This document shows positions 9,045 through 22,172 of a DNA stretch of 64,000 nucleotides, piece by piece. This DNA comes from Phytohabitans maris (lineage in GTDB: Bacteria; Actinomycetota; Actinomycetes; Mycobacteriales; Micromonosporaceae). The stretch is from assembly GCF_031085175.1 (NCBI RefSeq), contig NZ_JAVHUY010000027.1:62001-126000 (forward strand), given 5' to 3'. Numbering within the stretch: the first letter of the stretch is position 1; every line of letters starts with the position of its first letter. Made by a program: the position numbers and the translations under genes. The notes beneath the pieces were generated by a model, which was not told the origin of the DNA, made no database searches, and was given only the letters and a program-made list of their open reading frames with translations.

Positions 9045-10211
9045 ACCCCCGCGGTGGAGCGCTCCGGCGGTGGCACCCATGGCCGCGAACGGGAATCCGA
9101 GCACCGCAGTGACCGCGAGGACCAGGATGGCGCCGCCGACCTGGAACCCGGCGGTGGTGGCGTCGCCGGCGAAGGTCCACCCGCCGTCGACCGCGTACGC
9201 GCGTGCGGCTGCCAGCAGCCCCAGCGCGCAGCCGAGTGGCATGACCGTGATCGCGGTCCAGATGCCGGCCTCCACCCCGGCGGCGAACGATCGGCGGGCC
9301 GCCGCGGCGGCGAACGCGGGACCGCCGAAGGCGAACGCCGGCCCGAAGAGCAGCAGGAAGAGCGCGGCCCCGCCAAGGCCGGCGAGGGCGGCCACCATCT
9401 GCCCGGCGGCGAGGAGGACGGCGGCGCCGGCGCCCAGGTACGCCGCGAGGCGGCCGCCGCTCGACCGGCGTGCCGGCGCCACGGCCAGCCGGAGGCAGCC
9501 GGCGAGCACGACGGCGAGGAAGATCGCCCGGGCCGGCGTCAGCCCTTCGGGCGCGGCCGGATGCCGGGCCAGAAACGCCGCGGCGGCGACGACGGCACCG
9601 GCGACGGCGGCGGTCACCAGCGCGGTCGCCAGCGGCGCCGGCGGGCGCCCGGACCGGGCGCGGCCGACCGCCAGGACCGCCACGGCGACCGCAAGGGCGG
9701 CGAAGGTGGCCGCGAACAAGGCGAACCCGGGCAGCACCGCGCCGACCGCCAGGTGAGCGGCCGCCGCGACGACGGCACCGGCGGCGACCGCGAGCCCGAG
9801 CCGGCCGGCGGGCAGCAGCAGGGACACCGCCGCCCGGGCGGAGCTGAGCGCGAACCGCCAGCGTGCCCACCCGCCGCGCACCTCGACCATCTCGCCGAGC
9901 ATCGCCTGGCCCCAGCGCCGCCGGGGCTCGGGCAGCGTGGCCACCGCCACGGCCAGAAACCGCCCCGGCGCGTCCATCGTGGACAGACGGGCGCCGTCCG
10001 CCGCCCACCAGTGGTGGACCAGCAGCCAGGACGTAAACAGCCAGAGCAGCGCCGGCATCGCGAACGGCACGAGCAGCCAGAGCATCAGGTCCGGCGAGGA
10101 CGGCCCGGCGGACCGCACGACCCACGCGTAGAGGGCCGCGAACACCACGACGACCGGGGTGGCGGCGGCCATCTCGTACCGCCGGCGGATCCGGCTCACG
10201 CTCCCTGCCAT
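9018..10211 (-). CDS. Multi-spanning membrane protein co-encoded with a PadR regulator
   Basis: The 397-aa protein has a soluble N-terminal part containing EPRRRWGQAMLGEMVEV and eight or more alanine/leucine-rich membrane spans from about residue 120 on. It matches the pattern of actinobacterial permease-like proteins that are encoded right after PadR-type regulators; the function of these is unknown to me. The ATG at 10211 overlaps the PadR gene by 16 bases, which argues for one operon and translational coupling. The 3' end overlaps the antiporter gene on the other strand by 27 bases. The frame stays open further upstream, but only into the PadR gene. Confidence 0.75.
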   Translation of the reverse strand: MAGSVSRIRRRYEMAAATPVVVVFAALYAWVVRSAGPSSPDLMLWLLVPFAMPALLWLFTSWLLVHHWWAADGARLSTMDAPGRFLAVAVATLPEPRRRWGQAMLGEMVEVRGGWARWRFALSSARAAVSLLLPAGRLGLAVAAGAVVAAAAHLAVGAVLPGFALFAATFAALAVAVAVLAVGRARSGRPPAPLATALVTAAVAGAVVAAAAFLARHPAAPEGLTPARAIFLAVVLAGCLRLAVAPARRSSGGRLAAYLGAGAAVLLAAGQMVAALAGLGGAALFLLLFGPAFAFGGPAFAAAAARRSFAAGVEAGIWTAITVMPLGCALGLLAAARAYAVDGGWTFAGDATTAGFQVGGAILVLAVTAVLGFPFAAMGATAGALHRGGSLQRRGAQ

Positions 10212-10519
10212 CTCGGCTCCGATCGTCGGGGGACGGCGGCCGGCCGCGGCGGCGCCGGTGCGAGCTCGGCCGCGAGCGCCCGGCCGGAGCCGGTCAGCCG
10301 GTAGAGGTGTCGCGGTGGGCGGCCGGCGGGAGGGTCGGTCTCCCACGCCGTCTCCAGCAGTCCCCGGTCGGCCAGCCGCACGAGGATCGGGTACAGCGAG
10401 CCGGGGCGGAGGTCGAGCTGCTTGCACAGCTCGTAGCCGTATCGCCAGGTGGTGGGGGCGTCCGCGAGCGCGGAGAGCACCGCGATGGTCTGCGCCGACG
10501 GGCGGCGGGCTCTGGTCAC
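10196..10519 (-). CDS. PadR-family transcriptional regulator
   Basis: The 107-aa protein has a PadR winged helix: TIAVLSALADAPTTWRYGYELCKQLDLRPGSLY, then a PILVRLADRGLLETAWE segment, a PPAGRPPRHLYRLTGSGRAL wing, and a short proline-rich tail in place of the longer dimer helix of some members. It is expected to repress its own operon, which includes the overlapping membrane protein gene. The GTG start at 10519 is six bases from an inverted repeat (10526-10545) that is a good candidate operator. The inducer is unknown. Confidence 0.88.
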   Translation of the reverse strand: MTRARRPSAQTIAVLSALADAPTTWRYGYELCKQLDLRPGSLYPILVRLADRGLLETAWETDPPAGRPPRHLYRLTGSGRALAAELAPAPPRPAAVPRRSEPRWQGA

Positions 10520-10525
10520 GGCAAT

Positions 10526-10545
10526 AACTCTACATAGTCAGAGTT
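10526..10545. promoter_or_regulatory. Candidate PadR operator (AACTCT-N8-AGAGTT)
   Basis: A perfect 6-bp inverted repeat with an 8-base, AT-rich centre (ACATAGTC) stands directly before the PadR start codon, in an otherwise GC-rich neighbourhood. PadR proteins typically bind AT-rich dyads overlapping their own promoters. The dyad is seen; the binding is inferred. Confidence 0.55.
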
Positions 10546-10627
10546 TTGCCGGCAAGGCTTCGAGCCTCGCTCTTACCGTGGCGGCGTCGGGCGTGGCCGT
10601 GCCATCGCCGTGGCCGTGCTGCCCGAA

Positions 10628-10664
10628 CCTCGCCAGGGATCGCGACCGTGGAGCCCCGGCGAGG
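10628..10664 (-). terminator. Probable terminator of the ROK/creatininase operon
   Basis: Arms CCTCGCC (10628-10634) and GGCGAGG (10658-10664) extend inward by GGG/CCC after one mismatch, enclosing a 15-base loop. The hairpin lies 15 bases past the stop of the last gene of the minus-strand operon. No U-tract, as usual for actinomycetes. Confidence 0.5.
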
Positions 10665-10678
10665 TCCTTTGTGGCGGG

Positions 10679-11563
10679 TCAGGCCTGCGCGGCGAGGGTG
10701 AGCGAGCCGAGCAGCGCGGCGTCCTGCGCGAAGCCGGAGAGGACGACCTCGGGCCGGTACGGCAGGGCCCGGGAGAGGCGTTCGGTCAGCAGCTCGCGGA
10801 CCAGCTCGTCACGGGCGACACCGCCGACGAGCACCAGGCGCTGCGGGTCGACGAGCAGGCAGCAGGTGACGACGTGGCGGGCCAGCTCGTCGACGCGGGC
10901 GACCAGCGCGTCCCGCGCCGGGCCGGGAGAGCGGGCCGCGGCGCAGAGGCCGGCCGCGCCGCCGGACAGGCTGAGCCGCTCGGCGAGCTCGTCGAGGGCC
11001 CGGCCGGAGAAGTCGGCCTCCAGCCGCGGCTCTGCCGAGGTGGGCCAGCCCGGGCCGGTGACGGCGTACGCGATCTCGCCGGCCGCGCCGTGGCGCCCGG
11101 GTACCACCGTGCCGTTGACGGTGATGGCGGCCGCGACGCCGGTACCCAGCCCGATCACCACGCCCGGGTCGGCGTCCCGCAGCGCGCCGCGGTGCAGTTC
11201 GGCGAGGGCGGCCGCGTTGAGGTCGTTGGCGACCCGTACCCGGGAGATGCCGAGGTGGTCGCGGACCGCCTCGGCCAGGCGCAGCTCCTCCCAGCCGGGG
11301 ACGTTCGGCGCGAGGTCGATGCCGTCGTCGCGGACCAGGCCCGGTGAGGCGATGCCGGCGGCGTACAGGGTGCCGCCGGTGTCGGTGACGAGCTTCTGCG
11401 CCAGGTCCAGCGCGCGGGCCAGGGCCTGCCGCGCGCCGCGGGAAGCGAGCGTCGGCACCCGCTCGGAGATCAGGAGGCGCCCGTCGGCGTCGCCGATCCC
11501 GATCGCCATCTTGGTGCCGCCGAAGTCGATGCCCAGGAGCCGCCGGTCGGGCTGGAGGTTCAC
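10679..11563 (-). CDS. ROK-family sugar kinase
   Basis: The 294-aa protein starts VNLQPDRRLLGIDFGGTKMA, with the phosphate-binding DFGGTK motif, and contains ASPGLV, the catalytic-type VANDLNAAALAE segment (Asn-Asp), VIGLGTGVAAAI, and a GRHGAAGEIAY segment. The CxCGxxGCxE zinc motif of many ROK kinases is absent. It should transfer phosphate from ATP to a hexose or amino sugar. It is the last gene of the ABC/creatininase/lyase operon and its GTG overlaps the lyase stop (GTGA, 11560-11563), so it probably acts on the sugar released by the earlier steps. It has no DNA-binding domain, unlike the ROK regulator at the head of the locus. Confidence 0.9.
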   Translation of the reverse strand: MNLQPDRRLLGIDFGGTKMAIGIGDADGRLLISERVPTLASRGARQALARALDLAQKLVTDTGGTLYAAGIASPGLVRDDGIDLAPNVPGWEELRLAEAVRDHLGISRVRVANDLNAAALAELHRGALRDADPGVVIGLGTGVAAAITVNGTVVPGRHGAAGEIAYAVTGPGWPTSAEPRLEADFSGRALDELAERLSLSGGAAGLCAAARSPGPARDALVARVDELARHVVTCCLLVDPQRLVLVGGVARDELVRELLTERLSRALPYRPEVVLSGFAQDAALLGSLTLAAQA

Positions 11564-13020
11564 CGGGCGGACCTTTCCGCGACCGCGGCCGCGAGCATGG
11601 TGTCGGCGTCGTGCAGGCGCTTGCGCAGCCCGGTGGCGTGCGCGACCGCCTCGTCCAATGTGGAGCGGATCCGGCCGACCTGTACGCGTACCGCGGCCTC
11701 GCCCGGTCCGTCCTTCTGCGCGCGGCGCAGGACGAGCTCGGGCTGGAGCGCGGCGGCGACGAGGTCGTGGACGGCCGCGTCGGTGAGCGCGCCGACGCCG
11801 GCGGCCCGCGCCACCTCGCGTACGCCCGCGTCGGTCCAGGTGGCGGGCGCGCCGGCGCGGACGAGCCGGCCGACGACCGAGTGCGCGGCGCGGAACGGTA
11901 CGCCGTGCCGGGTCAGCGCGTCGGCGGCGGCGGTCGTCGTCGCGCCGGTCGCCACGATCGCCTCGCCGGTCGGCGGGCGCAACGGCTCCAGCCGCTGGAA
12001 CAAGCCGCCGAGCAAGGCGAAGAAGCGGTACGCGCGGTCGTTGCTCTCCCAGAGCCGCACCTGCACGTCGGTGGTCGCGTTGTTGGAGTCTTCCCACCAG
12101 GCGGCGCCGACGTTGTTGAAGACGGAGGCGGCGTCGGCCGCCGCGGCGCCGGCCATCGAGACCAGGTGCTCCAGGACGACCGGGTTGCGCTTCTGCGGCA
12201 TGATCGTGCTGCCCTGGGTGAACTCCTCCGGCGTGCGCACCCATTCCCAGCTGAGCCAGTCCATGAGCGTACGGGCCAGCCGGGCGCCGGTGGCCAGCGA
12301 CTGCGCGTTGAGCGCCCCGGTCCGCATGAGGTGGTCGGCGCCGGCGACCGCCTCGTACGAGTTGACCACCAGCTCCTCGAAGCCGAGCAGCTCGGCGACC
12401 CGCTCAGGGTCGATGTCGAGGTCGGTGCCGGCGAAGGCGCACGAGCCGAGCGGGGAACGGTTGACCTCGGCGAGCAGGCTCGCGTAGGCGGCGGCCTCCC
12501 CGGCCAGCGCCTCGGCGTACCCGGCGAGCACGTGCCCGAGGCTGGTGGGCTGGGCCGGGCGCCGGTGCGTGTACCCGACGACGACCACGTCGGCGTAGTG
12601 GTCGGCGCGGTCCAGCAGCTCGGCGCCCGCGTCCGCGATCGCGGCCAGCACGCGGAGCAGCTGGTCGCGCAATATCATCCGGAACACGCCGGCATCCAGG
12701 TCGTTGCGGCTCCGGGCGAGCTGCACGTTGAGCTCGCCGGTCGGGATGCCGCACGCGGCGGCAAGCCGTTTCTCCAGCGTGTAGTAGACGTCTTCGACGG
12801 TCCCGTCGTAGGTGAACGTCTCCGGCCGGTCCGCGCGGAGCGTGACCAGCCCGCGCAGCATCGACGCGGCCGACCCGGCGGGGATCAGGCCCCGCTCGGC
12901 GAGCATCACGACGTGCGCCTCGCTCGCCTTCACCATCGGCTGGTAGAGGTACCCGGCGTGGTGCTCGAACGTGACCCGGAGATGGTGCTGCTGGTAGGTG
13001 GTGAGCGGCGGCTGCGTCAC
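11560..13020 (-). CDS. Argininosuccinate lyase-like enzyme (fumarase/aspartase superfamily), substrate unknown
   Basis: The 486-aa protein has the three conserved regions of the superfamily: ARSRNDLDAG (about 102-111), GYTHRRPAQPTS with the likely catalytic His152, and the signature GSTIMPQKRNP (270-280) with catalytic Ser271. The nearest known relatives by motif are argininosuccinate lyases, but length and context differ: no other arg gene is present and the gene is embedded in an ABC importer/creatininase/ROK operon. Relatives outside arginine biosynthesis, such as EDDS lyase, split C-N bonds of N-succinyl-type compounds to give fumarate and an amine. A similar elimination is likely here. 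The GTG start overlaps the creatininase stop (GTGA, 13017-13020). Confidence 0.85.
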   Translation of the reverse strand: MTQPPLTTYQQHHLRVTFEHHAGYLYQPMVKASEAHVVMLAERGLIPAGSAASMLRGLVTLRADRPETFTYDGTVEDVYYTLEKRLAAACGIPTGELNVQLARSRNDLDAGVFRMILRDQLLRVLAAIADAGAELLDRADHYADVVVVGYTHRRPAQPTSLGHVLAGYAEALAGEAAAYASLLAEVNRSPLGSCAFAGTDLDIDPERVAELLGFEELVVNSYEAVAGADHLMRTGALNAQSLATGARLARTLMDWLSWEWVRTPEEFTQGSTIMPQKRNPVVLEHLVSMAGAAAADAASVFNNVGAAWWEDSNNATTDVQVRLWESNDRAYRFFALLGGLFQRLEPLRPPTGEAIVATGATTTAAADALTRHGVPFRAAHSVVGRLVRAGAPATWTDAGVREVARAAGVGALTDAAVHDLVAAALQPELVLRRAQKDGPGEAAVRVQVGRIRSTLDEAVAHATGLRKRLHDADTMLAAAVAERSAR

Positions 13021-13850
13021 GGCGTTTCCCCCGGTTGTGGTTGCGATACAGGATCCGTGCCCGGCGGGCCCGGCAGCGGCGCGGCCGCCCAGGCCCGGAG
13101 GATCTCGCCGAGCCGGGCGGCGGCCAGCTCCCGTACCCGCCGGCCCGCGGGCTCGCTGGCCAGCGAGATGTGCCCGCTCCACCCCTGCCACGGCTCGGGC
13201 CGGGACTCGACCAGCACGTACGGGTGGGGCGTCGGGAGCTTGGGGCGGGGTGGCAGGTCGGTGGCGGCGCCCCGGTGTACGGCCTCGGGGTCGAAGCCGA
13301 GCACGGCCGACGTCTCGTACGCGCCGCCGTGGCCGCGCGAGGTCAGCTCGCCGAAGAGCTCGCGGGTCTCGTCCGGGCCGACCAGCTGAAACCAGTTCAC
13401 GAGCATGAGGCTCGCCTGCCGCCGGCCGGAGACCCACTCCATCGCGGCGCGGGCGACCGACATGTTGGCGTCGTGGCCGTTGACGACGAGCACCCGCGAG
13501 AAGCCGGCGGCCACGATGCCGTCGAGCACGTCACACGCGTACGCGACGGCGGTCTCCGGGCGCACCGCGACCGTTCCGGGCCAGGGCCGGGTCTGGCCGG
13601 GGCAGGCGGTGTAGGCGACCGCGGGGAACGAGACGGCCCACACGCCGGCACTCTCCACTTCGGACGCGAAGCCCTCGGCGAGGATGAGGTCGGTGCCGAG
13701 CGGCAGGTGCGGCCCGTGCCATTCGACCGCGCCGACCGGGAGCACGGCCAGGTCGGCCGCCTCGGCGACCCGGGTGAGGGCGTGCCCCGGTACCCGGCTG
13801 ACCGGCAGCAGCCCGCCCCGGGCCCGCCAGGTGTCGATCAGTTCGTCCAC
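13017..13850 (-). CDS. Creatininase-family amidohydrolase
   Basis: The 277-aa protein carries the metal-binding signature of the family: AVEWHGPHLPLGTD (Glu43, His45, Asp54), NGHDAN further on, and HGGAYETS with a conserved glutamate. Members hydrolyse cyclic amides or formamides (creatinine, FAPy, pterin and sugar lactam-like rings) with two metal ions; others modify the mycofactocin peptide. There is no mycofactocin gene nearby, and the position between an ABC permease and an argininosuccinate-lyase-like enzyme favours a catabolic ring or amide opening. The GTG start lies 13 bases inside the permease gene; the stop overlaps the lyase start. Confidence 0.87.
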   Translation of the reverse strand: MDELIDTWRARGGLLPVSRVPGHALTRVAEAADLAVLPVGAVEWHGPHLPLGTDLILAEGFASEVESAGVWAVSFPAVAYTACPGQTRPWPGTVAVRPETAVAYACDVLDGIVAAGFSRVLVVNGHDANMSVARAAMEWVSGRRQASLMLVNWFQLVGPDETRELFGELTSRGHGGAYETSAVLGFDPEAVHRGAATDLPPRPKLPTPHPYVLVESRPEPWQGWSGHISLASEPAGRRVRELAAARLGEILRAWAAAPLPGPPGTDPVSQPQPGETP

Positions 13851-15589
13851 TGTTCCGCCTGTCGTGACGCGGCCCGGCCGCCGCGTTCCAGCCGCCCGGA
13901 GAACCACATCACCACGAAGATGAGGACGACCTGGAGCATGCCGTACGCGGCGGCGGTGCCGATTTCGAACGAGTACATCCGGTTGTTGATCGCCACCGAG
14001 ATCGGGACGGTGGACGAGGTGTAGATGAGCACCGAGGCGACGAACTCCCCCACCCCGTGCACGAAGGCGAGCAGCGCGCCGACGATGACGCCCGGCAGCA
14101 TGAGCCGCACCGTAACGCTGAGGAACGCCCGCCACCAGGACGCGCCGAGGTTGCGGGCGGCCTCTTCGAGCGACGGGTCGATCAGCGCGAGCGACGCCGA
14201 GCTGGCCCGGAAGACCAGCGGCAGGAAGCGCACGAAGTAGGCGAGCGGCAGGATCCAGAACGTGCCGATCAGCGCCTGGCCGAAGCTGAACCCGTTGCCG
14301 GTGCTGAACGCCGAGATGAGGTTGATGGCCACGACGGTGCCGGGCAGCGCCCAGGCGATCATGACGCCGACGTCGAGCAGGCTCCGGCCGACGAAGCGCA
14401 GCCGCCGCACCGCGTACGCGATGAGCACGCCGACCGCGACGCAGGCGGCGGTGGCGAGCAGGCTCATCCGCAGCGAGTTGAGGATCGGCTCGAACGCCCG
14501 CGGCTCGGTCAGGATCGTGACGAAGTTCTCGACCGTGTACGCGGAGGGGATGACCTCGGTGGTCCACGACCCGTCCGCGGAGAACGCCACCAGCGCGATC
14601 GTCGCGACCGGGGCGAGCAGCACGATCGTCGCCAGCACCGAGGCGACCGGCGCGAGCCAGCGCCCGATCGGGTTGGCGATCTCCCGCCGGTGCGCCGCGA
14701 CGCCCTTGGACTGCGACAGGTAGCTGCGCCGCCCCTCGTACCAGCGCATGGCCAGCAGGAAGGCGATCGACACCAGGCCCAGCACGGAGGCGTACGTCGA
14801 GGCCATCGGCAGGTCGCCGTTGGTGCGGTTGATGTAGATCTGCATGGTCATGGTCTGGTCGACGCCGAACAGCAGCGGCGCGGTGTACGAGGCCAGCGAG
14901 GTCATGAAGACCAGCAGCGAGGCCGAGACCAGGGCCGGCGTGAGCATCGGCAGCAGGACGGTGCGCCACACCCGGATCCGGCCGGCGCCGAGGTTGTAGG
15001 CGGCCTCCTCGATCGAGGAGTCCATGCCGGCCAGCGCGGCCGAGGCGGCGAGGTAGAAGAACGGGTACATGGTGAAGGTGTGCACGACGAGCACACCGGC
15101 GATCCCGTCGAACGCCAGTACCGGCCGCTCGGTGCCGAAGAGCTGCTGCAACGCCCGGGGCAGGATGCCGATCTCGCTGTAGAGCAGTTGGAAGGCGACC
15201 GCCCCGATCAGCGGCGGCAGCGCGGCGGGCACCAGGATGAACGCCTCGACCAGACCCCGGCCGCGAAACGTGAAGCGCTTGAGCAGGAACGCCATCGCCA
15301 CGCCGACGGTCCCGCAGAGCAGCACGCTCGCCGCCGAGATCACCAGCGACGTGACGAGCGAGGTGCGGGCGACGCCGGACGAGGTGAAGAACTGCGTGTA
15401 GTTGGCCGTGCCGTCCTCGCTGACGCTCTCCGCGAACGTGGCGAGCATCGGCTGCACCACGTAGCCCCAGAGGATCAGGGCGAGCGGGGCGACCAGCAGG
15501 TACGGGAACCACGGCGCGCTCGCCCCGCCGCCGAGCCGCCGGGTGAGCTGCGCCCGCCGGGACGCGCGCGGGGAGGCGACCGCGGTCAC
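13838..15589 (-). CDS. ABC importer permease, two fused transmembrane domains (iron/polyamine type)
   Basis: The 583-aa protein is a tandem of two binding-protein-dependent permease domains with about twelve spans. Each half has the EAA loop that docks to the ATPase: SSIEEAAYNLGAGRIRVWRT in the first half and SLEEAARNLGASWWRAFLSV in the second. This fused form is typical of the ferric iron (FbpB/SfuB) branch, which also contains importers of thiamine, 2-aminoethylphosphonate and similar compounds. The GTG overlaps the ATPase stop (GTGA, 15586-15589). Together with the downstream enzymes, import of an organic compound, rather than free iron, is more likely. Confidence 0.92.
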   Translation of the reverse strand: MTAVASPRASRRAQLTRRLGGGASAPWFPYLLVAPLALILWGYVVQPMLATFAESVSEDGTANYTQFFTSSGVARTSLVTSLVISAASVLLCGTVGVAMAFLLKRFTFRGRGLVEAFILVPAALPPLIGAVAFQLLYSEIGILPRALQQLFGTERPVLAFDGIAGVLVVHTFTMYPFFYLAASAALAGMDSSIEEAAYNLGAGRIRVWRTVLLPMLTPALVSASLLVFMTSLASYTAPLLFGVDQTMTMQIYINRTNGDLPMASTYASVLGLVSIAFLLAMRWYEGRRSYLSQSKGVAAHRREIANPIGRWLAPVASVLATIVLLAPVATIALVAFSADGSWTTEVIPSAYTVENFVTILTEPRAFEPILNSLRMSLLATAACVAVGVLIAYAVRRLRFVGRSLLDVGVMIAWALPGTVVAINLISAFSTGNGFSFGQALIGTFWILPLAYFVRFLPLVFRASSASLALIDPSLEEAARNLGASWWRAFLSVTVRLMLPGVIVGALLAFVHGVGEFVASVLIYTSSTVPISVAINNRMYSFEIGTAAAYGMLQVVLIFVVMWFSGRLERGGRAASRQAEQWTN

Positions 15590-16671
15590 GGCCGGACCAC
15601 CCAGAGCCGGTCGGCGGAGAGCCGCAGCCCGATCCGGTCGCCGATCCCGACGCGCTCCGGCGCGTCCACGGTCGCGACGGTCACCTCGGTGTCGGTACCG
15701 CCGATGTCGACCTGGACGGTCAGGTGCGTGGTCATGCCGGTGAACTCGATCGCGGTGACCCGCCCGCCGATCGCGCCGGGGTCGGTGGGGCCGGTGACCG
15801 CGATGTACTCGGGGCGGGCCGAGACCAGCGCGGTGTCGCCGGTACCCAGCCCGTGCCCATCGGGCGCGCCGGACCAGACCCGCGCCCCGCCGGGGAGCAC
15901 GACCTCGACCCGGGTCGCCTCGGCGGCGGCGACCGGCAGCGACAGTACGTTGCTGCGGCCGATGAAGCGGGCCACGAACTCGTTGGCCGGCTGGTGGTAG
16001 ACCTCGCGCGGGCTGCCGACCTGCTGTACCCGGCCGGACCGCATCACCGCGATCCGGTCGGACATCGCCATCGCCTCGGCCTGGTCGTGGGTGACGTAGA
16101 TCGAGGTGGTGCCGGACTCCCGCTGGATGCGGCGGATCTCGGTGCGGGTCTCCTCGCGCAGCTTGGCGTCCAGGTTGGACAGTGGTTCGTCGAGCAGCAG
16201 CATGCGCGGGCGGATCACCAGCGCGCGGGCGAGCGCGACCCGCTGCTGCTGGCCGCCGGAGAGCTCGTCGATGCGGCGCGCGCCGTACCCGTCGAGGTGC
16301 ACCTCGGCCAGCGCCTCGGCCACCCGCCGGGCCGCCTCGGCCCGCCCCACGCGGCGCACCTTGAGGCCGTAGGCGACGTTCTGCGCGACGGTCAGGTGCG
16401 GGAAGAGCGCGTAGTTCTGGAACACCATGCCGGTGTCGCGCTTGTTCGGGGCCAGGCGGGTGACGTCCTGGCCGCCGAAGCGGATGTGGCCCTCGCTGGG
16501 GAAGTAGAAGCCCGCCACCATGCGCAGCGTGGTCGTCTTCCCGCATCCGCTCGGCCCGAGCAGCGTGAAGAACTCGCCCGCCCCGATGGTGAGGGTGACG
16601 TCGTCGACCGCGGCGGCGGCGTCGGAACGGGCGAAGCGCTTGCTCACCGATTCCAGTTCGACGTCGATCAT
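15586..16671 (-). CDS. ABC importer ATPase with C-terminal TOBE domain
   Basis: The 361-aa protein has Walker A GPSGCGKTT, Q-loop VFQNYALFPH, the LSGGQQQRVALARAL signature, Walker B MLLLDEPLSNLD and the switch histidine THDQAEAM, followed by a TOBE-type domain from about residue 240 (ALVSARPEYIAV). This is the PotA/FbpC/MalK class of importer ATPases. The ATG at 16671 has GGAGG at the right distance. It follows the binding-protein gene after 67 bases that contain a hairpin, and overlaps the permease gene. Confidence 0.94.
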   Translation of the reverse strand: MIDVELESVSKRFARSDAAAAVDDVTLTIGAGEFFTLLGPSGCGKTTTLRMVAGFYFPSEGHIRFGGQDVTRLAPNKRDTGMVFQNYALFPHLTVAQNVAYGLKVRRVGRAEAARRVAEALAEVHLDGYGARRIDELSGGQQQRVALARALVIRPRMLLLDEPLSNLDAKLREETRTEIRRIQRESGTTSIYVTHDQAEAMAMSDRIAVMRSGRVQQVGSPREVYHQPANEFVARFIGRSNVLSLPVAAAEATRVEVVLPGGARVWSGAPDGHGLGTGDTALVSARPEYIAVTGPTDPGAIGGRVTAIEFTGMTTHLTVQVDIGGTDTEVTVATVDAPERVGIGDRIGLRLSADRLWVVRP

Positions 16672-16694
16672 CTGTCCTCCAGCCGTGCTGCCGG

Positions 16695-16729
16695 CCGGCC
16701 GGACCGCCGCGGTGCGACGGCCCGGCCGG
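16695..16729 (-). other. Intercistronic hairpin between binding protein and ATPase genes
   Basis: Two copies of the self-complementary CCGGCCGG (16695-16702 and 16722-16729) can form an 8-bp stem around a loop that contains a second short dyad (ACCGCCGCGGT). It lies about 10 bases after the binding-protein stop. Such hairpins often raise the yield of binding protein over membrane components by partial termination or mRNA protection; that role is inferred. Confidence 0.35.
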
Positions 16730-16738
16730 TGAGAGCGG

Positions 16739-17788
16739 TCAGCCCTTGTTCTTGATCTCGGCGTTCCAATGGTTGATCCACTCGGTTTCGTGCGCGGCGA
16801 TGACGGCCCAGTCGACGTCCATCGGCTTGAGGTCGAGGTTGGCCAGCCACTCCGGCTGCTCGGAGATCGGCACGGCGGGGATCTGGAAGAAGTCCTTGGC
16901 CAGGTTGGCCCGGAGCGCCCCGTCGAAGAGGAACTCGATGAAGGTCTTGGCCCCCGCGGTGTTGCCACCCTTGATCACGGCGACGCCGTCGACCAGGACC
17001 GGTGCGCCGGAGGCGGGCATCACGTACCCGAACGGCATCTTGGACTGCTCGGACTGGAGCAGGATGTCCTGGAGGTTCCAGGCGCTGAGCACGCCCTGCT
17101 GGCGGGACATCTTGACGTACATGTCGGTGGGGTTGGCGGCGTACTCGACGGTATTGGCGTCGAGCTTGCGCAGCCAGTCGTACCCGGGCTGGGGGTTGCT
17201 GCCGTCGGGTGAGAGCCGCTGGATCATCGAGGCGTAGATCGAGCGCATCGTGCCCGACGCGGGGACGTCCCGGATGATGACCTTGTCTTTCCACTTCGGG
17301 TCGACGAGGTCGTCCCAGTCCTTCGGCGCCTGGTCGGCCGGGATCGCCTTGTTGTTGTACATGATGACCTCGGGCAGCAGGATCTCGCCGAACCAGCGGC
17401 CCTCGGCGTCCTTGTACCGGGCGTCCATCTGCGCGGCGAACGACGGCTGCCACGCTTCGAGCAGGCCGTCCGTGGCGCCGGACGACAGGCCCTGCTGCGT
17501 GCCGCCCCACCAGACCGAGCCCTGCGGGTTGGCCTTCTCGGCGCGGGTACGCTCCAGCACCTCCTGCGCGCCCATGTTGAGCACCTCGACCTTGCCTTCG
17601 TACTCGGGGTACTTGGCGACGAACCGCTCGACGACGAAGTCGGTGACCTTCTTGTCCCGGGCGCTGTAGACCACGATCCGCTCGGCCGTGGTGCCCGCGG
17701 TCTCGGTCTCCTCGCTGTCGCCGCCGCAGGCGGCAAGGCTGGCCACCATCGCGCCGAGCGCGACGGTGAGAGCCAGGCGACGTCTCAT
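16739..17788 (-). CDS. ABC importer solute-binding lipoprotein (iron/polyamine-type, family 1/13)
   Basis: The 349-aa protein has a lipoprotein signal peptide, MRRRLALTVALGAMVASLAAC, with lipobox LAAC and Cys21 as the lipidated residue. The mature part begins with VVYSARDKKVTDFVVERFVAKYP, typical of ferric-iron and related binding proteins, and contains LLPEVIMYNNKAIPADQAPKDW and KGGNTAGAKTFIEFLF segments of that class. The row of tyrosines used by FbpA-type proteins to bind iron is not evident, so the ligand is more likely organic. RBS GGAGG precedes the ATG. The gene follows the ROK regulator by 44 bases and leads the importer genes. Confidence 0.92.
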   Translation of the reverse strand: MRRRLALTVALGAMVASLAACGGDSEETETAGTTAERIVVYSARDKKVTDFVVERFVAKYPEYEGKVEVLNMGAQEVLERTRAEKANPQGSVWWGGTQQGLSSGATDGLLEAWQPSFAAQMDARYKDAEGRWFGEILLPEVIMYNNKAIPADQAPKDWDDLVDPKWKDKVIIRDVPASGTMRSIYASMIQRLSPDGSNPQPGYDWLRKLDANTVEYAANPTDMYVKMSRQQGVLSAWNLQDILLQSEQSKMPFGYVMPASGAPVLVDGVAVIKGGNTAGAKTFIEFLFDGALRANLAKDFFQIPAVPISEQPEWLANLDLKPMDVDWAVIAAHETEWINHWNAEIKNKG

Positions 17789-17832
17789 GGTTGTACCTCC
17801 GCTTTTCACAGGAACGGGAACTAGGTGAGTTG

Positions 17833-18987
17833 TCAGGAAAGGGCGGGGAGGCGTACCGCGGCCGACAGGGCGTAGCTGATCGCGCCATGCAGCACCGCCT
17901 GGTCTCCGAGCACCGCCCGCCGTACCTCCGTCGCGGCGGGTGCCTCGGCGGAGACCAGGTGTTGGATCTGTGCCAGCGCCGCGTCGTCGAGCTGTGCCGC
18001 CGCGCCGCTGAGCAGTACCCGGCCCGGGTCGACGACACAGGCGCAGGAGACGATGAGCCGGGCCCATGCCTGGAGCACCTCGTCGAGGTACGCCCGGGCC
18101 GCGGCTGAGGTGTTGGCGAGCTCGATCAGCTCGCTGACCGGCGCCTCGGGGCGGCGGCCGGGGTGCAGCGCGACGACCCGCTCCGCGATCGCGTTGGCCG
18201 ACCAGCGCGCCTCGAAGGGGCCGACCCCGCCGTACGCGCGGGCCGGCCCGGGGTCGAGCGGCAGGAAGCCGACCTCGCCGGCCGCGCCGCTCGCGCCGCG
18301 GCGCACCTTGCCGTCCAGGACGAGACCGGCGCCGATGCCGTCGGCGACATGCAGCAGCAACAGGTCGTCGACGTCCTTGCCGGCGCCGGCGACCCGCTCC
18401 CCCGCGGCCATGAGATTCACGTCGTTGTCGACCACGACGGGCACGCCGAGGGCGCTGCGCACCGACTGGCCGATCGGCTGCGCCTCGACCAGGCCGACCG
18501 AGGGGGCGAGCCGCACCGCGCCGTCCGACGAGACGCCGGGCACCGCGATCGCGACGCCGCAGAGCGCCGGCCGGTTGTCGGCGACCAGCTCGGCCACGAA
18601 CTGGCAGACCGTCTCGACCATGTCGCCGCTGAGCCGGGACGTGCGGTGGGCGATCACCGCGCCGTTGCTGTCGGCGATCTCGCAGGTGATGCGGGGCGGC
18701 TCCAGGGAGACCGCCGCGACGAGCTCGGCGCGCGGGTTGAACTCGAGCATCGCCCGCGGCCGCCCGGTCGTCTGGGCGGCGGTGCCCCGCTCGATCAGGT
18801 ACCCCTCCGCGATGAGCTCGCGCACCAGCGCGGTGAGCGTCGCGGGTGGGAGCCCGGTCCGCTCGGCGAGGTCGGCCCGGGACAGCAGGCGGGCCTGGCG
18901 GGCCGCCGAGATCACCGACTGGCGCTTGATCTCGCGCGACCGCTCCCGGCTGACCGGGCTGGTCGGGGTCTTCCCTTCGGTGATCAC
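17833..18987 (-). CDS. ROK-family transcriptional repressor (NagC/XylR type)
   Basis: The 384-aa protein joins an N-terminal winged helix (about 18-75; LLSRADLAERTGLPPATLTALVRELIAEGYL) to a ROK sugar-binding domain (GVAIAVPGV, VDNDVNLMAAGE, HVADGIGAGLVLDG, GAAGEVGFLP). The cysteine-rich zinc motif seen in many ROK proteins is not present. It probably represses the importer/creatininase/lyase/kinase genes that follow it and the divergent deacetylase gene, and is released by a sugar or sugar phosphate. The start is a GTG at 18987 with a dyad right in front of it (18990-19010), consistent with autoregulation. An excess of ROK proteins in one locus (regulator and kinase) fits an amino-sugar-like substrate. 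Confidence 0.93.
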   Translation of the reverse strand: MITEGKTPTSPVSRERSREIKRQSVISAARQARLLSRADLAERTGLPPATLTALVRELIAEGYLIERGTAAQTTGRPRAMLEFNPRAELVAAVSLEPPRITCEIADSNGAVIAHRTSRLSGDMVETVCQFVAELVADNRPALCGVAIAVPGVSSDGAVRLAPSVGLVEAQPIGQSVRSALGVPVVVDNDVNLMAAGERVAGAGKDVDDLLLLHVADGIGAGLVLDGKVRRGASGAAGEVGFLPLDPGPARAYGGVGPFEARWSANAIAERVVALHPGRRPEAPVSELIELANTSAAARAYLDEVLQAWARLIVSCACVVDPGRVLLSGAAAQLDDAALAQIQHLVSAEAPAATEVRRAVLGDQAVLHGAISYALSAAVRLPALS

Positions 18988-18989
18988 CG

Positions 18990-19010
18990 TTTCTTACTAG
19001 TGCGAAGAAA
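18990..19010. promoter_or_regulatory. Candidate ROK operator in front of the regulator gene
   Basis: TTTCTT (18990-18995) and AAGAAA (19005-19010) form a perfect inverted repeat around ACTAGTGCG. The 14 bases from 18997 (CTAGTGCGAAGAAA) match the consensus of the tandem repeats at 19305-19350 in 11 of 14 positions and in the same orientation. Location immediately upstream of the GTG of the ROK gene suggests autoregulation. Confidence 0.55.
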
Positions 19011-19304
19011 GTGGGTAGGTCAAGTCACGAAATGATCTCGCCCGACCACTGGAGGCGGTGACCAGAAGGGCATTATCCCGGCATATATGGATCTTACTGG
19101 CTATCGACCAGCGTTCATTCTTTCCATCGCGAAAAAACTGGACGACCGGGTATTGACGGCGCTTCAAGGTGATCTTTAGCGTTACCGCTCGAAGGTCCTT
19201 CCAGCGGTTACGGGCACGTCCCGGAGCGCTGCGACCGGCCGCGCCGGCGCCGCGGCGCGGATCGTGCACGCGGGATCGACACCGCCTGCGCACCTCAATC
19301 TTTT

Positions 19305-19350
19305 CTAGTCCGAATTAACTAGTTCGAATCAACTAGTCCGAATCAACTGG
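19305..19350 (+). repeat. Three and a half tandem 14-bp repeats (consensus CTAGTCCGAATCAA), probable operator array
   Basis: Copies begin at 19305 (CTAGTCCGAATTAA), 19319 (CTAGTTCGAATCAA) and 19333 (CTAGTCCGAATCAA), with a degenerate half copy from 19347. The period is exactly 14 bp. The array lies 78-123 bases upstream of the deacetylase ATG. A further diverged copy is found at 18997 before the ROK regulator gene. The spacing puts neighbouring sites on different faces of the helix, so cooperative binding would need a wrapped or bent complex. Confidence 0.75.
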
Positions 19351-19427
19351 CGAGTCGCGACCGGATACCCGCGACATCCCCTGGGCCACCGATACCCCCT
19401 GCCCACCACACGAAGAGGTATGTCCAC

Positions 19428-22115
19428 ATGAGATGGCACGCCAAAGCGGTGATCGCCGCCTGCGGTCTACTGCTGACGGGCCTGGCCAGCCCCGCGCAAG
19501 CGAAACCGAGCCAGCCGATCGACCTCGACATCATGTTCATCGGCGCCCATCCTGACGACGAGGCCGGACAGCTGGGCATGTTCGGCTACTGGAACGAGAC
19601 CCACGACATGAAGGCGGGCGTCATCACGATGACCCGCGGCGAGGGCGGCGGCAACGCGGTCGGCCTGGAGGAAGGGCCGGCGCTCGGCATCCTGCGCGAG
19701 GCCGAGGAGCGGCGCGCGGTCGGCTGGGCCGGCGTCGAGAACGTCTACAACCTCGACGCGCTCGACTTCTACTACACCGCGAGCGCGCCGCTGTCCGAAC
19801 AGATCTGGGGATACCAGAACTCGCTGTCCCGCATCGTCCGGACCATCCGGGCCACCAAGCCCGAGGTCATCGTCACGATGAACCCGTCGGCGACCCAGGG
19901 CAACCACGGCAACCACCAGGAAGCCGCGATGCTGGCGGTCGAGGCGTTCTACGCCGCCGCCGACCCCAAGGCGTTCCCGGAGCAGATCCGGAAGGAAGGG
20001 CTCGAGCCGTTTCGGGTCGCCCGCCTCTTCCAGGCCGGCGGCAGCGGCTCCGGCGCGAACGGGCCGGCCTGCGAGACGGCGTTCACCCCGGCCCAGCCGA
20101 CCAACGTCGTCTTCGGCACCTGGCAGGGGTACGAGTCGGCCCGCCACGACGGCACCCGGTGGAACCAGGTCAACGTCTGGGCCCGCCGCGAGTACGCCTC
20201 GCAGGGCTGGGCCAACACCGGGGACGCGGCCACCGACCCGGCGGCCATCGGCTGCAACCGGATCACGATGATCGACAGCCGGACCCCGTACCCGGACCCG
20301 CGGGTCGGCGGCACCGCCGCGCTACAGGGCACCAGCATCCGCGCGCGGGGCGGCCTCCCGCTCGGCACCGAGCTGCACGTCCGCCCGGAGAGCTGGGAGG
20401 TGCTGGCCGGGCAGCCGTTCGTGGTCAAGACCCACGTGCGGGCCACCAAGGCCGTCCCGGGCGCGCGGGTGATCCTCGAAGCGCCGCCGGGCTGGACCGT
20501 CAAGGGCAACGGCGACATCGGCGCCGTCACGCCCGAGAAGGAGTCGGTCGCCCGGTTCACGGTCACGCCGCCAACCAACCTGGTGGCCGGCGAACGGTTC
20601 CGGCTCAAGGCGACGATGACCACCAAGAAGGACGGCTGGGGCAGCAACACCACGCTGGTACAGGCGACCGCGCCGGTCCGGGGCACGCTGGAGCCGCTGC
20701 CCGAGGTGGGCGACTTCCGCGAGTGGACCGAGCGCAACGGCGTGCAGTCGCTCGACGCGCTGATCGACTCGATGCTGAGCATCCCGAGCGGCGGTACCCG
20801 GCCGGTCCGGGTCGACCTGACCAACCACGGCGACCAGGTGCAGTCCGGCACGGTGAAGCTCAGCGTCCCCACCGGTTTCGCCGTGGCCGAGGCGGAGCAG
20901 GGCTACAGCGGCCTGCGGCCCGGTGCCCGCGGCTCGGTCACGTTCACGGTGACGAACACCGACGCGTCGCTGCCGACCGCCAACCGCGCGCCCAACGACG
21001 GCCGCTACCCGGTGCGGATCGAGACGAGCTACACCGGCGGCAGCGCGGCCGAGCCCGGCGTCCTCAACATCGTGCCGGTCACGACGATCCCCAAGGCCGC
21101 GACGGCACCGGTGGTCGACGGCACGGCGGGCCCGGGCGAGTACACCGGTGAGGTCGTCGACATCTCCACCCGCTGGGAGGGGAGCGCGGCCCCGGCCGCC
21201 GACATCTCCGGCACGGCCCGGCTGGCGTACACCGACGACGCGGTCTACGCGCTCTTCGACATCACCGACGACGTGCTCGGTACGGTGCTGCCGCCGGAGG
21301 ACTGCAAGCGGCCGCGGCGCAACGACAACATCGAGTTCGGCATCGACCCGCGCGGCGGCTCGCCGAACACGTCGACGGTGTTCAACGTGGCGCTCTTCCC
21401 GGCCACCGACGACCCGGCCCGCGGCAACCCGCCGTGCTACGCCCGGGAGCGGGACAACCACCAGGGTCCGGGCCCGCAGACCGCCCCCGGCATGTCGGTG
21501 GCGTCGGTCGTGACCGACAACCCCTACACCGGGTACCGGATCGAGGTGAAGGTGCCGTTCAGCGTCCTGCCGGACAATGTGGACGCCGCGACGATGGGCA
21601 TGAACATCCTCGTGAACGACTCCGACACGCAGGACCTGTCGGCGCAGACCCGGGTCGGCTGGTCGACCTGGAGCGGCGTACGGGCCGACCCGTGGCGGTG
21701 GGGCGTGGCGCGCCTCGACGGCCACGCGACCCAGCCGTCGTCGCCGAACGAGCCGATCATCCCGGACACGGCGGCGCTGAGCGTCAACTCGCCGCAGACG
21801 ATCCTCCAGTCCAGCAAGGACAAGGTCGCGCCGGGCGGCTGGACCGCACTGCCGGACGGCACGGTCCGGATCGGCGACGTGACCAAGCGGCGCGACGGCG
21901 TCGGGTTCGCGCTGAAGGCGGGCAAGCCGGGTACGGCCCGGGCCTTCGTCTGGGACGGCGACTCGGTGCTGGCGCAGACGACCGTCCAGTTTGGCCGGCG
22001 CGGCGAGACCGACGTGTGGCTCCCGCTGGGCGGCCCGCTCCCGAGCGGCACCACCCTGCTCGTCTCGTACCAGTCCGGTGACGCCACCACGGGTGTCGCG
22101 CGGCGGCTGCGCTGA
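19428..22115 (+). CDS. Secreted PIG-L-family deacetylase with NEW3-like and CBM9-like domains
   Basis: The 895-aa protein has a Sec signal peptide ending ASPAQA (cleavage near residue 25). Residues 33-290 are a PIG-L/LmbE domain with the zinc motif AHPDDE (40-45) and a later GNHGNHQEA segment (His160/His163) for the third ligand. PIG-L enzymes remove acetyl groups from N-acetylglucosaminyl conjugates. The middle (about 310-550) shows immunoglobulin-like stretches including a NEW3-type VDLTNHGDQVQSGTVKLSVP, and about 560-740 reads as a CBM9-like carbohydrate-binding domain (AYTDDAVYALFDITDD). It is transcribed divergently from the ROK/ABC operon behind the 14-bp repeats and ends in a strong terminator. 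An extracellular deacetylation that prepares the substrate for import is a reasonable inference. Confidence 0.88.
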   Translation: MRWHAKAVIAACGLLLTGLASPAQAKPSQPIDLDIMFIGAHPDDEAGQLGMFGYWNETHDMKAGVITMTRGEGGGNAVGLEEGPALGILREAEERRAVGWAGVENVYNLDALDFYYTASAPLSEQIWGYQNSLSRIVRTIRATKPEVIVTMNPSATQGNHGNHQEAAMLAVEAFYAAADPKAFPEQIRKEGLEPFRVARLFQAGGSGSGANGPACETAFTPAQPTNVVFGTWQGYESARHDGTRWNQVNVWARREYASQGWANTGDAATDPAAIGCNRITMIDSRTPYPDPRVGGTAALQGTSIRARGGLPLGTELHVRPESWEVLAGQPFVVKTHVRATKAVPGARVILEAPPGWTVKGNGDIGAVTPEKESVARFTVTPPTNLVAGERFRLKATMTTKKDGWGSNTTLVQATAPVRGTLEPLPEVGDFREWTERNGVQSLDALIDSMLSIPSGGTRPVRVDLTNHGDQVQSGTVKLSVPTGFAVAEAEQGYSGLRPGARGSVTFTVTNTDASLPTANRAPNDGRYPVRIETSYTGGSAAEPGVLNIVPVTTIPKAATAPVVDGTAGPGEYTGEVVDISTRWEGSAAPAADISGTARLAYTDDAVYALFDITDDVLGTVLPPEDCKRPRRNDNIEFGIDPRGGSPNTSTVFNVALFPATDDPARGNPPCYARERDNHQGPGPQTAPGMSVASVVTDNPYTGYRIEVKVPFSVLPDNVDAATMGMNILVNDSDTQDLSAQTRVGWSTWSGVRADPWRWGVARLDGHATQPSSPNEPIIPDTAALSVNSPQTILQSSKDKVAPGGWTALPDGTVRIGDVTKRRDGVGFALKAGKPGTARAFVWDGDSVLAQTTVQFGRRGETDVWLPLGGPLPSGTTLLVSYQSGDATTGVARRLR

Positions 22116-22139
22116 GCGACGCGGTTTCACATCGCGGGT

Positions 22140-22172
22140 CGGGAGGGGCCGGCATCGCGCCGGCCCCTCCCG
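22140..22172. terminator. Strong perfect hairpin terminator
   Basis: Arms at 22140-22153 and 22159-22172 are perfectly complementary over 14 bp (CGGGAGGGGCCGGC) around the loop ATCGC. It lies 24 bases after the deacetylase stop and 19 bases before the next ATG. It should insulate the DUF4132 pair from the catabolic locus. Confidence 0.88.

Follow-up and report, generated by a model that had tools for sequence, protein, structure and literature searches.

Here we describe a candidate catabolic operon from Phytohabitans maris (Actinomycetota, Micromonosporaceae; host genome 9.87 Mb), located within a 64,000-nucleotide stretch of contig NZ_JAVHUY010000027.1 (the whole stretch analysed, hereafter "the window"). 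Reading frames in the sequence gave seven genes on the minus strand and one divergent gene on the plus strand between positions 10627 and 22172. In the order of transcription, the minus-strand genes encode a ROK-family repressor, a binding protein, an ATPase, a double permease, a creatininase-family enzyme, a lyase, and a ROK kinase. The last five, from the ATPase to the kinase, are coupled through GTGA overlaps at 11560–11563, 13017–13020, and 15586–15589 and through a 13-base overlap at 13838–13850 between the permease gene and the creatininase-family gene. An earlier sequence-only reading of this DNA had described the same seven genes, the four overlaps, and a divergent gene for a secreted PIG-L protein, and the frames confirmed that layout. 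The features are as follows.

10627–10665, minus strand: GC hairpin 3′ of the kinase gene, at the end of the operon (15-nt arms, 87% complementary; z −2.2; no U-tract)
10679–11563, minus strand: ROK-family sugar kinase of 294 amino acids, putatively a glucosamine kinase (PF00480, E 1.8e-32)
11560–13020, minus strand: fumarase/aspartase-superfamily lyase of 486 amino acids, predicted to release fumarate (PF00206)
13017–13850, minus strand: creatininase-family hydrolase of 277 amino acids, a candidate opener of a cyclic amide (PF02633, E 1.3e-45)
13838–15589, minus strand: fused double permease of the importer, 583 amino acids (PF00528, two stretches)
15586–16671, minus strand: ATPase of the importer, 361 amino acids (PF00005 and TOBE_2)
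16739–17788, minus strand: lipoprotein-like binding protein of 349 amino acids (PF13343)
17833–18987, minus strand: ROK-family repressor of 384 amino acids with an N-terminal helix-turn-helix (PF00480 and HTH_24)
18990–19010, no strand assigned: ROK-operator-like palindrome TTTCTT-N9-AAGAAA, the sole match in the window when up to one mismatch is allowed
19428–22115, plus strand: secreted PIG-L amidohydrolase of 895 amino acids with NEW3 and CBM9-like domains (PF02585, PF10633, PF06452)
22140–22172, plus strand: GC hairpin 3′ of the PIG-L gene (14-nt arms, 100% complementary; z −4.1; no U-tract)

Pfam backed a named family for each of the eight proteins, and among the matches listed none of the eight reached an NCBIfam cut-off. 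A pattern scan returned no sigma-70 promoter and no intrinsic terminator, and a tRNA scan found none. Of the terminators that had been claimed at both ends, the GC hairpins are therefore present and the U-tract and the intrinsic-terminator pattern are not.

The gene set is kept together in other genomes. In a comparison of 151 related genomes, in which up to 16 candidates were scored per genome, a close lyase occurred in 14 (own genome included), with 52–88% identity in the others, and a creatininase-family gene (E 1e-20) was found in exactly those 14 and in none of the other 137. One of the 14 lyase copies, that of G003, is broken across frames. All seven genes were present in the same order in 13 of the 13 other lyase genomes, and in 7 of them an additional gene for a PF04909 amidohydrolase lay between the creatininase-family and lyase genes (identified by Pfam in locus L046 and by tblastn in the rest). 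This arrangement is far above chance. PIG-L orthologues (E 1e-100) were found in 9 of the 14 lyase genomes and in 4 that lack the lyase. When one genome per species was scanned with two short peptide patterns, a search that is hence not exhaustive, at least 58 lyase loci were obtained, all of them in Actinomycetota by title or lineage. When the genes were counted across these loci by tblastn (the lyase being present in 58 of 58 by construction), the importer genes were found in 56, a sugar kinase in 56, the repressor in 55, the creatininase-family gene in 37, PIG-L in 36, and the PF04909 amidohydrolase in 32. In one case (G041), PIG-L was encoded elsewhere in the genome, away from the lyase locus. 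Of 396 genomes drawn evenly from the phylum, only two had a match at 1e-90, one of which was the window's own genome, so the system is uncommon. The conserved gene set supports the earlier proposal of a single catabolic unit. Departures from the common arrangement were also seen: L091 and L113 are lyase loci without importer genes, with the kinase of L113 on the opposite strand, before the regulator, and in L049 and L111 (Phytohabitans suffuscus) the repressor, lyase, and PIG-L genes are each broken across frames, reflecting either sequencing error or a decaying operon.

The best NCBIfam family for the window lyase was argH, at 230.8 bits against a cut-off of 279.5 that it does not reach. The protein keeps the SRND, TH, and GSxxMPQKxNP motifs and carries a WWEDSNNATTDVQ loop, and the fumarate-side motifs (SRND, TH, and GSxxMPxKxN) were invariant across 23 aligned rows, as in the fumarase/aspartase superfamily. 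The ArgH loop aligned here, which we take to face the arginine half of the substrate in argininosuccinate lyase, is replaced by W(W/Y)EDSNNATTDVQ, Y[ND]RD[LM]xED-K is not present, and EDVH of ArgH corresponds to ED-x-[YF]-[YF] in the lyases of the system. The pattern D-x-N-[ND]-x3-[DE]-x-Q within this stretch is shared with related lyases from Deinococcus and of the Aminobacter type (described below) and is absent from the ArgH, ethylenediaminedisuccinate (EDDS) lyase, and other relatives compared. In a maximum-likelihood tree of 85 rows, the actinobacterial lyases formed one clade (100/100), which the Deinococcus and Aminobacter lyases joined on one side of a 100/97 branch; the other side held ArgH (with both of the ArgH-like genes found elsewhere in the window's own genome), EDDS lyase, and two other groups. 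This tree contained 68 system rows. Twelve were hand-picked (several duplicating a named locus); the others came from those of the 58 loci that had one stop-free lyase stretch of more than 1100 bases, a requirement that excluded L091 and L111. It was rooted at the midpoint, the deciding branch is short (0.12), five rows are of odd composition, and the program gave long-branch warnings for EDDS lyase (3.09) and for the Deinococcus rows meeting those of Aminobacter. Because it falls in a separate clade across the 100/97 branch, the lyase is set apart from ArgH, and the earlier suggestion that it is not a biosynthetic enzyme withstood the phylogenetic check. A structure model of the lyase (mean predicted local distance difference test score [pLDDT], 88.5) was matched by Foldseek in the PDB first to EDDS lyase and then to ArgH structures, at 20–30% identity; its precise relationship to EDDS lyase is less certain than its separation from ArgH. 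Another clade of ArgH-like lyases (L050–L055; 100/100), from Micromonosporaceae and relatives, lies apart from both ArgH and this system. In a search for the PRK06705 family, the own genome and 14 control genomes all scored under the cut-off.

The kinase differs among the loci in a way that bears on the chemistry. Across the 58 loci it was of the ROK type in 38 (including L113, where it sits in the rearranged place) and of the PfkB type in 18, never both, with neither in L091 and L100. Loci of Saccharopolyspora, Actinomadura, and Arthrobacter have PfkB in place of the ROK kinase (in L092 with a Pfam E of 6.9e-54), and the creatininase-family gene always occurs together with the ROK kinase (37 of 58 loci). 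In eight loci (L102, L104–L109, and L114, from Brachybacterium, Actinotalea, Tessaracoccus, Galactobacter, Helcobacillus, and a Propionibacteriaceae metagenome-assembled genome [MAG]), the lyase and PfkB follow one another in one reading frame of 796–836 amino acids; that of L104, 764 amino acids long, is ended by the contig edge, and the fusion was confirmed by Pfam in Brachybacterium L102. The kinase swap and the fusion suggest that a sugar hydroxyl is phosphorylated beside the lyase step. Genes of the glucosamine-6-phosphate (GlcN-6-P) deaminase type, from two unrelated families, lie in the cluster at nine loci in two phyla. NagB itself exceeded its cut-off of 236.9 bits in the Loktanella (250.9 bits) and Paroceanicella (242.1 bits) clusters, and a nagB-like gene of an Arthrobacter MAG (L101), which overlaps the amidohydrolase gene by four bases, remained under it at 220.3 bits. 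Five Pseudonocardiaceae loci have, in the same place as this gene, an SIS gene whose best family is NagB-II (177–195 bits), and the SIS gene of a Roseomonas cluster scored 313 bits with the same family; NagB-II was thus the best family for six of six cluster SIS proteins, none of which reaches the cut-off of 430. The own genome has a NagB-II-like SIS gene elsewhere (219.7 bits). The deaminase genes at these nine loci are the strongest evidence for a putative GlcN-6-P end point.

A search of annotated plasmids for PIG-L led to related clusters in Deinococcus and Aminobacter; because the gene tables of the plasmids are not complete, a gene missing from them is weak evidence of absence. The Deinococcus cluster contains a ROK gene, an "argininosuccinate lyase," a secreted PIG-L/NEW3 protein, a CUT1 importer, a second PIG-L protein, and a carbohydrate kinase. 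Four of seven Deinococcus records examined had ROK, lyase, importer, a PIG-L, and kinase genes, three of these also the secreted PIG-L, and the remaining three had lyase and importer alone. The Aminobacter cluster contains PfkB, UgpC, "argH," a CUT1 importer, ROK, and PIG-L. Among 12 alphaproteobacterial records examined, with lyases about 54% or more identical to that of Aminobacter (more such records exist), the lyase, a CUT1 importer beside it, and the ATPase were present in 12, a ROK regulator and a sugar kinase in 9, and PIG-L in 7. Six distant lyase relatives were also inspected (L117, L118, L120, L166, L167, and L168, with those of L118, L167, and L168 alphaproteobacterial); in the five that are annotated, no PIG-L/ROK/kinase set was seen nearby, and L117 is unannotated. 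The CUT1 importers indicate that the importer family varies while the enzymes persist, and that the second importer family is a carbohydrate one. Other genes were observed around these clusters: an EamA-family transporter gene, whose product might export a freed amino acid or conjugate, abuts the alphaproteobacterial PIG-L gene in L152, L169, and L173; pyridoxal phosphate-dependent, cysteine-desulfurase-like genes, all far below cut-offs, lie close to the clusters of Aminobacter and Loktanella and next to PIG-L in L145; and a gene annotated as cysteine dioxygenase, without a Pfam or NCBIfam match, lies near a Roseinatronobacter cluster. These are weak leads, consistent with cysteine release but unspecific, and we did not use them as an argument.

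In the window, the importer falls, among the NCBIfam matches listed, in the iron/polyamine/phosphonate group. The sequence-only reading had called it an iron/polyamine-type importer, and as a guide to the ligand this label did not hold, given the carbohydrate importers of the other phyla and the solved structures closest to the binding protein. By profile these are P5PA, VcA0625, and AfuA, ahead of the ferric-binding proteins (E 1e-30 and 2e-34 for the AfuA and P5PA subgroup), with pyridoxal phosphate as the ligand of P5PA and hexose phosphates as those of VcA0625 and AfuA. A Foldseek search against the PDB, made with the one good model of five (mean pLDDT 79.8), was also led by P5PA and AfuA, and the iron protein FutA1 was one of its top four matches. 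The iron ligands of FbpA are paired tyrosines, and no Tyr-Tyr pair occurs anywhere in the binding protein. AfuA-type binders of sugar phosphates have His205, Asp206, and Glu229 (PMC4546632; here and below, the cited papers are represented by excerpts). When AfuA residues taken from that paper and from PMC8427247 were mapped by hand onto the profile alignment, the equivalents of Thr60, the Ser148-Gly149-Thr150 loop, and Asp206 were kept, and the residues aligned with the triad were Gln240, Asp241, and Leu265. Arg182, beside the Ser-Gly-Thr loop, was invariant in 15 rows. An anionic sugar derivative fits these features as a candidate ligand.

The metal ligands of the PIG-L protein, AHPDD[ED] and HxxH, are kept, with H41, D43, D44, H160, and H163 at ≥98% in 37 rows. 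The window protein remained under the cut-offs of BshB1 (37.9 bits; cut-off 182.5) and Mca (34.1 bits; cut-off 277.15), and a search of solved structures gave two weak matches, which we take to be of the chitobiose-deacetylase type. Its Sec-type N-terminus and its NEW3 and CBM9-like domains bear out the earlier view of a secreted protein with carbohydrate-binding features. Across the loci, the N-terminus resembled the Sec type in Micromonosporaceae and was, by eye, Tat-like in Jiangella and in the Brachybacterium group. It was readable in 19 of 36 loci; 14 of the 19 passed a hydrophobicity threshold, and the other five (L102, L104, L106, L107, and L109) have a twin-arginine-like motif, again read by eye. 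An export signal was found in two of three Deinococcus PIG-L proteins tested, the third being read from an incomplete start, and the second, cytosolic Deinococcus PIG-L was closest to MshB, with 147 bits against a cut-off of 224, and to Mca. No secretion signal was found in 7 of 7 alphaproteobacterial PIG-L proteins examined, which leaves extracellular deacetylation, as had been supposed, unsupported as a general step. Acyl removal can presumably take place inside or outside the cell, and this may account for the differing importers. According to a review of 2014, the LmbE-like enzymes known by then have N-acetyl- or N-acylglucosamine cores as substrates, and the substrates of PIG-L/LmbE proteins include N-acetylglucosamine (GlcNAc)-malate for BshB and bacillithiol conjugates for Bca (PMC4101496). 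Separately from the lyase loci, L147 (G027, same family; 8433–17149), L146, and L148 each have a PIG-L relative and a CUT1 importer and no lyase, with a PfkB-type kinase in L147 and, weakly, in L148, and a GH4 glycosidase in L147. The L147 type is perhaps a sister route for another N-acylglucosaminide (possibly a mycothiol core), with GH4 removing the aglycone.

Metal coordination in the creatininase family involves Glu, His, Asp, His, and Glu, and the corresponding E43, H45, D54, H126, and E179 were conserved at ≥98% in 39 rows; the creatininase equivalog cut-off was not reached (82.8 bits against 235). The creatininase-family enzyme is a lineage-specific addition. By analogy with muramic lactam, the free amine and the near carboxyl of a glucosamine (GlcN)-O-malate could close a six-membered lactam, and it is our guess that a cyclic amidase of the creatininase family would open it.

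The repressor had NagC as its best NCBIfam family, with a score far under the cut-off. Two bases separate the repressor start from the palindrome upstream of it (18990–19010), which is unique in the 64 kb even with one mismatch. Of 56 stretches 5′ of the repressor gene, counting that of the window, 24 contain a palindrome of this class, compared with 0.01 on average in 200 mononucleotide shuffles; the pattern was picked after the sequences had been inspected. The ROK repressor would control the operon. At least two copies were found in 11 of 37 intergenic stretches between PIG-L and the repressor; in the window no copy adjoins the PIG-L gene, and joint control of that gene therefore remains putative. 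Upstream of PIG-L, the window has three 12-base near-repeats, CGAATYAACTRG, with a 14-base period (19311–19350), which differ from the repressor-side palindrome and at which another regulator may act.

From the families, the conserved gene set, the kinase swap and fusion, the deaminase genes, and the export signals, all read from sequence, we infer the following reactions and substrate. The PIG-L metal amidase would cleave off the N-acyl group, either cysteine or acetyl, acting extracellularly in Actinomycetota and Deinococcus and intracellularly in Alphaproteobacteria. The ATP-binding cassette importer would take up the anionic glucosaminide. The creatininase-family enzyme of Micromonosporaceae and a few other lineages (with the PF04909 amidohydrolase where present) may undo a cyclic form, such as the GlcN-O-malate lactam. 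By the usual chemistry of its superfamily, the lyase would expel glucosamine from the C4 unit, leaving fumarate; before or after this step, the ROK or PfkB kinase would form GlcN-6-P, which NagB or the NagB-II-like SIS deaminase would convert to fructose-6-phosphate. The kinase swap and fusion, the carbohydrate importers, and the cluster deaminases together suggest GlcN-6-P and fumarate as the most likely end products of the route, and they strengthen the earlier outline of import, splitting, and phosphorylation of an amino-sugar conjugate. That the route ends in GlcN-6-P and involves a sugar-linked, non-ArgH lyase is the part of this interpretation that we regard as probable.

The substrate is a more tentative matter. 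The sequence-only reading had given the conjugate a succinyl- or guanidino-like part; the former is supported as a C4-dicarboxylate, and nothing observed points to the latter. If the 2-amine is acylated, as in a PIG-L substrate, the C4 unit must sit on oxygen, that is, as a malyl ether. To our knowledge, bacillithiol, with its precursor GlcNAc-malate, is the one natural compound with an N-acylglucosamine and malyl ether make-up. Bacillithiol is Cys-GlcN-malate (PMC4360819) and is made from UDP-GlcNAc, malic acid, and cysteine (PMC6282198). Our leading interpretation, to which we give close to an even chance, is that the operon serves the catabolism of an N-acylglucosamine to which a C4-dicarboxylate is joined through an ether (or amine) linkage; the likeliest compounds of this kind are bacillithiol, whether free, oxidised, or conjugated, and the GlcN-malate core. 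That bacillithiol or GlcN-malate is scavenged as the substrate seems slightly less probable than that, and the broader proposal of a bacillithiol-consuming pathway in three phyla, in which the lyase family annotated as ArgH would be a glucosaminyl-malate lyase, a new activity, is the most tentative of these statements.

Several observations weigh against this interpretation. A secreted PIG-L with polysaccharide-type accessory domains is odd for a small thiol, PIG-L is missing from 22 of the 58 stretches (some of them cut short), and in L147 a PIG-L relative stands beside CUT1, PfkB, and GH4 genes without a lyase. The Aminobacter-type lyase passes the argH cut-off (312.7 bits). In the binding protein, Ser37, His205, and Glu229 of AfuA are changed to Ala, Gln, and Leu, so its ligand is not fixed. 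The creatininase-family gene (37 of 58) and the PF04909 enzyme (32 of 58) are not universal. A deaminase lies in the cluster at only nine of the loci examined, five actinobacterial SIS proteins score close behind with the isomerase part of GlmS (140–180 bits), and the own genome has no canonical NagB (23.8 bits). Genes for bacillithiol synthesis were not noticed among the annotated neighbours examined, where no search aimed at them was made. Furthermore, Deinococcus radiodurans makes bacillithiol (PMC4360819), so that the pathway would have to be tightly controlled in any Deinococcus that has it.

The alternative that survives best, although we consider it unlikely, is that the lyase splits the C–N bond of a hexosamine–aspartate conjugate (either an N-glycosyl aspartate or an amino sugar bearing an N-(1,2-dicarboxyethyl) group) to give fumarate and an amino sugar, which is then phosphorylated. 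ArgH, PurB, and EDDS lyase all cleave C–N bonds, EDDS lyase is the nearest solved structure, and a GlcN-6-P end point is equally compatible with this route; however, a C4 unit N-linked to the 2-amine would leave PIG-L no N-acyl group to remove, and we know of no abundant natural hexosamine–aspartate conjugate. Much less probable is an Amadori/opine-type route, in which a fructosyl-aspartate-like compound would be imported and split and the kinase would yield a fructosamine phosphate. The PfkB kinases do match fructoselysine 6-kinase weakly, and the SIS proteins a deglycase, but these scores are lower than the ribokinase-type ones and far lower than the NagB-II scores of the same proteins, with none at a cut-off; nagB exceeds its cut-off in two clusters, and PIG-L would be left without a role. 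Catabolism of a chelator, with iron-type import of an EDDS- or aminopolycarboxylate-like metal complex and EDDS-lyase-like cleavage, has a slimmer chance again: no solved structure matches the lyase better than EDDS lyase in fold or sequence, and the importer belongs to the iron/polyamine/phosphonate group, but a sugar kinase fused to the lyase, PIG-L, the GlcN-6-P deaminase, and the CUT1 importers of other phyla do not suit such a substrate, and EDDS lyase lies outside the system clade (on a long branch). Finally, that the lyase is a diverged biosynthetic ArgH next to unrelated transport genes is hardly credible. In its favour are argH as the best family (231 bits; cut-off 279.5) and the passing score of the Aminobacter homologue (313 bits), but it is contradicted by the two other ArgH-like genes of the genome, the separate monophyletic clade, the changed leaving-group loop, and the conserved operon.

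Other functions and substrates were considered and rejected. These were iron uptake; guanidino compounds; muramic acid, whose lactyl ether has, by our reasoning, no second carboxylate to acidify the departing proton; and chitin oligomers, for which the set has no glycosidase and the lyase would lack an explanation.

Bacillithiol and its derivatives have been proposed as the most widespread small thiols in bacteria (PMC6282198). If our interpretation of a bacillithiol-consuming operon is true, it would account for the fate of some bacillithiol carbon, nitrogen, and sulfur in soil and would give a defined activity to a family labelled "argininosuccinate lyase" in databases; the binding protein, lyase, and amidase would then be testable reagents for a thiol used by many Firmicutes. 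Even with a different aglycone, the combination of PIG-L, a fumarate-type lyase, a sugar kinase, and a GlcN-6-P deaminase suggests a rule of association.

Among known systems, EDDS lyase (6g3d and 6rx8, presumably from Chelativorans) resembles the window lyase as its nearest solved relative, with the same fold and a C–N lyase reaction giving fumarate; it differs in its 29–30% identity over the fold match, its separate place in the tree, and its lack of the D-x-N loop, and we know of no link between it and sugar genes. ArgH shares the fold and the fumarate-side motifs, whereas its clade is separate, its arginine-side loop is replaced here, and its EDVH is changed. AfuABC and P5PA have binding proteins of the same subgroup, from which the present one differs in the equivalents of Ser37, His205, and Glu229 and in its invariant Arg182. 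In bacillithiol synthesis and detoxification (BshA-BshB-BshC and Bca), the substrates of PIG-L enzymes are GlcNAc-malate and the Cys-GlcN amide of that core (PMC4101496, PMC4360819); those enzymes build or recycle the thiol inside the cell, whereas here the actinomycetotal PIG-L is secreted and joined to an importer, lyase, kinase, and deaminase. Among the matches listed in open-licence literature, seen as titles and opening lines of abstracts, neither removal of malate from the bacillithiol core, nor any other breakdown of that core, nor a described pathway with this gene set was found, the last in agreement with the sequence-only reading; older or subscription work may exist. NagC/NagB-type GlcNAc catabolism is similar in its ROK regulator, its ROK kinase, and its GlcN-6-P deaminase end step, but in the operon described here a PIG-L amidase and a dicarboxylate lyase would stand in for NagA and glycosidases.

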